13,366 nucleotides of DNA from Planctomycetaceae bacterium. GTDB lineage: Bacteria > Planctomycetota > Planctomycetia > Planctomycetales > Planctomycetaceae. The position numbers and the translations under genes were made by a program. The stretch lies in contig JAJDEK010000004.1 of NCBI GenBank assembly GCA_029259875.1, forward strand, positions 1 to 13,366, read 5' to 3'. Below, one piece after another: positions 251 through 8,364 of this stretch (its first letter is position 1; each line of letters opens with the position of its first letter). A model generated the notes under the pieces. The model saw nothing but the letters and a program-made list of their open reading frames with translations, was not told the DNA's origin and did not search any database.

Positions 251-8364
<8,114 letters not shown>

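Follow-up and report, generated by a model that had tools for sequence, protein, structure and literature searches.

The closest described counterparts of the ketosynthase (KS) reported here are the KSS and KSQ loading domains of NysA, RimA, GfsA and PikA1, which likewise have a KS fold in which the cysteine is replaced while both histidines and the HGTGT motif are kept. KSS domains carry the very same serine, and the original prediction, in which Cys-less KSs were said to have usually Gln, overlooked this established subtype of Cys-to-Ser loading domains (PMC4540446, PMC12843615). KSS and KSQ modules are N-terminal, with a working acyltransferase (AT) and an acyl carrier protein (ACP) following, whereas the KS-AT pair considered here, KS2-AT2, is C-terminal, its AT is dead and no ACP follows. 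The second relevant system is CalA3, which according to PMC10006239 is a terminal KS module without an ACP and releases the chain by hydrolysis or amidation. Like KS2-AT2, it has an inactive AT and the KS is likely the active domain; replacement of its Cys by Ala raised hydrolysis 4.46-fold. However, CalA3 is a separate protein with a Cys-His-His KS, DH and KR, whereas KS2 has Ser and is not followed by DH or KR. KS-CLF (chain-length factor) pairs such as ApeO-ApeC resemble KS1 and KS2 of our protein in comprising a paralogous non-condensing KS in a pathway of the aryl polyene type, but they are type II systems of separate proteins, the CLF is described as being without catalytic residues and ApeC as being about half size. 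Finally, DpsC, as presented in PMC12664062, is a KS-like enzyme with a Ser nucleophile, which undergoes self-acylation and then transfers the acyl group; unlike KS2, it has a Ser-His-Asp triad and transfers the starter in a type II system. The planctomycete polyketide synthase (PKS) work described in PMC10896814 concerns type III enzymes. In the open-access literature that was searched, no description was found of a C-terminal ACP-less serine KS or of the PKS family to which it belongs. Thus, Ser KSs are already known from polyene loading modules, but the C-terminal ACP-less form is apparently undescribed, in line with the expectation that a Ser KS after the ACP is unusual. It is a naturally occurring Cys-to-Ser ketosynthase that is deeply conserved and lies outside loading modules; KS1, its paralogue with an intact Cys in the same protein, is a built-in control that makes the role of the serine KS directly testable. 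It also points to an apparently undescribed pathway of the aryl polyene type in Planctomycetota and Verrucomicrobiota, which is type I and probably cinnamate-primed.

The window, i.e., the whole stretch of 13,366 nucleotides that was analysed, is an entire contig of a draft planctomycete genome (589 contigs, 74% complete). Its features are collected in Table 1. The PKS scores 2198.3 bits against NCBIfam NF045894 (PKS_plus_SDR; cut-off 1740), a family whose description reads only type I polyketide synthase, with the serine unmentioned. A Pfam scan of the protein found no thioesterase domain within it. A near relative among the best 120 protein matches, P0006, is labelled Gimesia sp. Translation of positions 251-8368 bore out the predicted difference between DTASSSSL in KS2 and DTACSSSL in KS1 (residues 203-210, nt 857-880), as well as the AGT codon of the serine. 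The span originally given for the motif, 6320..6334, starts correctly but covers only DTASS, the full motif ending at 6343. In AT2, the translation reads GFGIG at residues 2494-2498 versus GHSVG in AT1; this degenerate state of the AT following KS2 had not been noted in the original prediction. At the N-terminus of the PKS (window 251-340), the NKQALLKIRELKQ stretch resembles a coiled-coil docking segment and is similar in several relatives; the ligase-ACP of a related locus (L009, 6315-8420) terminates in LIRELKN, and the two segments are possibly a docking pair.

Table 1. Features of the window (coordinates in nucleotides, residue numbers of the PKS)
Feature	Position	Strand	Evidence
Type I PKS, 2705 aa, KS1-AT1-DH-(structural)-KR-ACP-KS2-AT2	251..8368	+	Translation and Pfam
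KS1, intact Cys206-His341-Lys376-His381, gate Phe445	356..1636	+	Pfam; alignment, each 100/100 rows
AT1, intact Ser667 (GHSVG) and His768	1976..2905	+	Pfam; alignment, 100/100
DH, His968 in HEVMGAIVFPGAG	3053..3865	+	Pfam; alignment
KR, Ser1612-Tyr1625-Asn1629 retained	4676..5230	+	Pfam; alignment, 100/100 each
Single ACP, GMDSLM	5498..5710	+	Pfam; motif
KS2, non-canonical ketosynthase, sister of KS1	5819..7099	+	Pfam; trees; predicted structure
DTASSSSL motif (residues 2024-2031); Ser2027 at 6329-6331 replaces the nucleophilic Cys	6320..6343	+	Alignment, Ser 100/100
KS2 His2162 of EAHGTGT	6734..6736	+	Alignment
KS2 Lys2197 to His2202 (KANISH)	6839..6856	+	Alignment
KS2 Leu2266, gate-loop position where KSs have Phe	7046..7048	+	Alignment
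AT2, degenerate acyltransferase; nucleophile column Gly2496 at 7736-7738; without FHS motif	7433..8200	+	Alignment
Flavin-dependent halogenase-like protein 1 (WVWIIP motif)	8365..10011	+	Profile matches
Flavin-dependent halogenase-like protein 2	10092..11759	+	Profile and PDB matches
RND efflux periplasmic adaptor	11869..13251	+	Profile matches

A search with residues 1850-2700 returned 7902 proteins, of which the best 120 were listed and used. Listed proteins of 2500-2800 aa, the fusion protein P0067, the window protein and the full-length frames from contig loci gave an alignment of 101 rows. L033, from a Clostridia MAG, was left out as an outlier of other architecture. The remaining 100 rows comprise the window, 83 of the best 120 matches and 16 loci; some of the protein and locus rows are the same gene, and 95 rows remain below 95% identity. 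The other 37 listed matches were excluded by length and, judging by motif, are proteins with several KSs, mostly with Cys. In KS2, Ser2027, His2162, Lys2197 and His2202 are each present in 100 of 100 rows, the window's own included, and the Ser column is also invariant in the 95 rows left after removal of near-identical sequences. None of these 100 full-length rows of the same architecture has Cys in this column, so that the refuting condition named in the original prediction did not arise. The serine is encoded by AGC or AGT in all 23 motifs readable in the loci, namely in 19 of 25 loci (L009-L032 and L034; six had no readable motif) and in L037-L040, where L037 is the window itself and L038 is the same genome as L009. 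KS1 is equally invariant at its Cys, His, Lys and His, as is AT1 at its Ser (100/100 each). By contrast, the nucleophile column of AT2 contains Gly in 99 rows and a gap in one, an FHS-like motif follows KS2 in only three rows, and the aligned AT2 segment is shorter than that of AT1 (family medians of 241.5 versus 310 aa). No ACP follows KS2, with an isolated GTDSF in one of the 100 rows, and an LPxYPF-like post-AT motif, defined by a loose pattern, is found at the C-terminus in 97.

The retention of both catalytic histidines agrees with the original prediction, but its statement that all other KS motifs are kept does not hold. Residue 2266 is Leu in 98 rows and Ile in two, in place of the gate Phe. 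In the NIGH motif, which reads NISH in the window, Gly is replaced by Ser in 93 rows and by Ala in one, and is kept in six. The gate Phe is present in 96-97% of 150 Cys-KS references. The fixed KS2-specific replacements surround the active site and tunnel, the position of the latter following what we take to be the correspondence between FabF and KS residue numbering. Mean identities among the members (at most 400 random pairs) are 0.796 for KS1, 0.776 for KS2, 0.578 for AT1 and 0.377 for AT2. The dN/dS values from comparisons with three close relatives are 0.032-0.042 for KS2 and 0.033-0.050 for KS1, versus 0.088-0.116 for AT1 and 0.205-0.256 for AT2. The Cys-to-Ser swap is fixed and strongly preserved in the family, which suggests that KS2 probably has a job other than chain lengthening; a non-condensing role, as originally proposed, appears likely. 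Pseudogene decay is excluded by the invariant catalytic residues and the KS1-like dN/dS of KS2, consistent with the earlier view that there is no general decay. A sequencing error or a lineage-specific mutation would be conceivable because AGT and TGT differ by a single base, but with Ser in 100 of 100 rows and agreement of other genomes, including the one-contig G002 and G003, this possibility is negligible and we consider it excluded.

In KS trees of 192 and 214 sequences, KS1 and KS2 are each monophyletic (support of 1.0) and form sister groups (0.975 and 0.969, respectively). Among the references sampled for both trees, which do not include CLFs, the KSQ, KSS and other Cys-less KSs all fall outside the KS1/KS2 clade. 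Also outside are the planctomycete PKSs that match KS2-AT2 at 41-44% and KS from cyanobacterial plasmids. The sister relationship thus argues for an internal KS-AT duplication rather than an origin from a loading-module KSQ or KSS. Judging from the trees, KS2-AT2 is a copy of the KS1-AT1 condensing region within the same gene, made before the spread of the family, and this copy subsequently lost both nucleophiles, the Cys of KS2 and the Ser of AT2. Given an alignment of 33 KS2-AT2 and KS1-AT1 rows, AlphaFold2 returned a model with a mean pLDDT of 82.7 and a pTM of 0.84, which informs on the fold rather than on dimers. Its best Foldseek matches are KS-AT didomains, with CurL (4mz0) first, consistent with a KS-AT fold, and the CalA3 structure (7wvz) is also a fold match. 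The top rows in VIA-align include the bacillaene module 6 C167S ketosynthase, the KSQ-AT didomains of PikA1 and GfsA, and Lsd14, all tied within about 1 Z unit.

The gene order in locus L009, repeated in two one-contig genomes, is an aromatic amino acid lyase, an AMP-ligase with ACP, the PKS, two flavoproteins, an RND adaptor and an RND pump. Families present in more than two of 17 loci, compared using frames of at least 150 aa, are the PKS, ligase-ACP and lyase (15 loci each), the flavoproteins (13), the RND pump (12) and the adaptor (10); extension to frames of 70 aa added no recurrent family. Accordingly, no recurrent release enzyme was found among the 17 loci in frames of at least 70 aa. 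In one complete genome, a scan of eight flanking genes at E 1e-5 likewise detected no thioesterase. The lyase is present in 21 of 25 loci and the ligase-ACP in 22. Among the loci without lyase or ligase, L020 and L030 lie on short contigs, whereas in L014 and L026 about 8 kb upstream of KS1 contain neither gene, so that not every locus displays the starter route; the L014 PKS carries both flavoproteins and L026 is cut after KS1. All 23 lyase sequences (21 loci plus L078 and L080) have the MIO Ala-Ser-Gly and, at what is presumably the selectivity site, the F-L pair. This pair marks phenylalanine lyases, according to PMC5651878. The same paper characterised the lyase of Planctomyces brasiliensis on Phe and reported that the lyases it selected, this one included, are associated with operons for fatty acids and polyketides. 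In P0067 (3354 aa), the ligase-ACP is naturally fused directly ahead of KS1. From this gene content we infer that cinnamate primes KS1. A search of the window's own genome gave no match to the lyase and only matches of at most 34% identity to the ligase in this 74% complete assembly; since the assembly is incomplete and the contig starts 250 bp before the PKS, the presence of both genes here is deduced from the relatives. The tandem halogenase-like flavoproteins (window 8365-11759) score far below the cut-off of the CmlS model and have PDB matches to PltA, CmlS and others. They may be halogenases or other oxidases, and halogenation of the product is possible. Flavoproteins are absent from L013 and L028 despite 8 kb following the PKS, and from the 2.8 kb following it in L021. 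These three loci belong to an eight-row subgroup (L013, L021, L028, P0027, P0072, P0076, P0113 and P0115) with common replacements in both KS1 and KS2. In the three for which a neighbourhood is available, no halogenase-like genes were seen, suggesting that the product may have altered along with the tunnel.

At least 86% identity over the whole protein is reached in the window's own genome and in three of the 16 other genomes examined from the genus. In 392 genomes across the phylum, 11 match KS2-AT2 at E 1e-150; four of these, the same genomes as above, reach 83%, and the other seven are at 41-44%. Loci with at least 45% identity come from Planctomycetota and Verrucomicrobiales MAGs, plus two MAGs labelled only 'bacterium'. 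The PKS also has matches in 1314 records of a plasmid collection, none of which reaches 60% identity. Another contig of the window's own genome (C302 of G000; L003, L006) encodes a FabF-like KS adjoining a KS-like protein that has neither the Cys nor the second His; the two look like a KS-CLF pair belonging to a different pathway.

Serine supports Claisen condensation poorly, and KS2 would therefore not extend the chain. We tentatively favour the view that KS2-AT2 is a conserved terminal pseudo-module in which KS2, non-condensing and probably catalytic, off-loads the aryl chain. KS1, primed with cinnamate that is produced by the ammonia-lyase and loaded via the ligase-ACP, would elongate iteratively with AT1, KR and DH, yielding an aryl polyene on the single ACP. 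The adjacent KS2 would then take over the completed chain, bound either as a Ser oxyester or non-covalently, and release it to water or an acceptor, standing in for the thioesterase that the cluster appears to be without. AT2, fast-evolving and without a nucleophile, would be what is expected of a scaffold. Release is ranked first because of the terminal ACP-less position shared with CalA3, the lack of a thioesterase and the re-lined active site. However, the CalA3 precedent retains Cys and has DH and KR, L014 and L026 show no lyase or ligase upstream, and the chain could leave spontaneously, through a distant thioesterase or through the product of a gene outside the loci. The retained HGTGT and both histidines would fit decarboxylation equally well. 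KS2 has intact both histidines and the HGTGT motif that belong to the KSQ mechanism (PMC12267109), and decarboxylation is the activity ascribed to the natural Cys-to-Ser KSs found in polyene loading modules (PMC4540446, PMC12843615), so that KS2 could be a KSS-type enzyme converting malonyl-ACP to acetyl-ACP. Yet the accompanying AT2 is dead, an ACP is missing downstream, KS2 does not group with KSQ or KSS in the trees, and the ten references of these types (four KSQ and six KSS) all retain the gate Phe and the NIGH Gly that KS2 has replaced. In addition, the Ser of NysA at the equivalent place seemed less important than another Ser. An aryl starter route is encoded in most loci, which makes acetyl priming unnecessary; with KSS precedents on record but no obvious use for an acetyl starter, decarboxylation ranks third and is an unlikely function.

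Ranked between release and decarboxylation, and itself somewhat doubtful, is the possibility that KS2 acts as a CLF-like partner, with KS1-AT1 and KS2-AT2 forming a pseudo-twofold dimer in which KS2 shapes the KS1 tunnel, as in ApeC/ApeO. Such pairing would agree with the duplication: KS1 and KS2 are paralogues within one protein, the whole condensing region was copied and retained down to the post-AT motif, and type II aryl polyene systems are reported to employ a KS-CLF heterodimer (PMC8358021). Of ten inter-domain blocks compared in 95 rows, KS1 with KS2 showed the strongest covariation; this excess disappeared when 17 flagged rows were removed (80 rows). This reading is placed second because CLFs are described as being without catalytic residues (PMC12664062), whereas KS2 retains all of them in every row; the CLF-like KS on C302, by inspection, has lost both the Cys and the second His, unlike KS2. 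It is quite improbable that KS2-AT2 serves only as a structural cap or dimerisation element with the Ser as a harmless leftover: the degenerate, fast-evolving AT2 would suit such a role, but the catalytic residues never vary among the rows, and the constraint on KS2 matches that on the working KS1. With due reservation, the duplicated half may be described either as a serine-based off-loading copy, in which a ketosynthase has become a thioesterase or acyltransferase, that ends iterative aryl polyene synthesis or as part of a single-chain pseudo-dimer with an active-site-bearing chain-length partner.

Serine KSs also occur at the N-terminus of other large synthases. Among the 37 proteins excluded from the alignment, five have an N-terminal DTASSSS and one more (P0017) was recognised via alignment; the six are P0008, P0009, P0012, P0017, P0023 and P0093, of which P0012 is labelled Thermodesulfobacteriota. 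Other residues found in the KS nucleophile column are His, in P0014 and P0025, and Arg, in P0099 and P0104.
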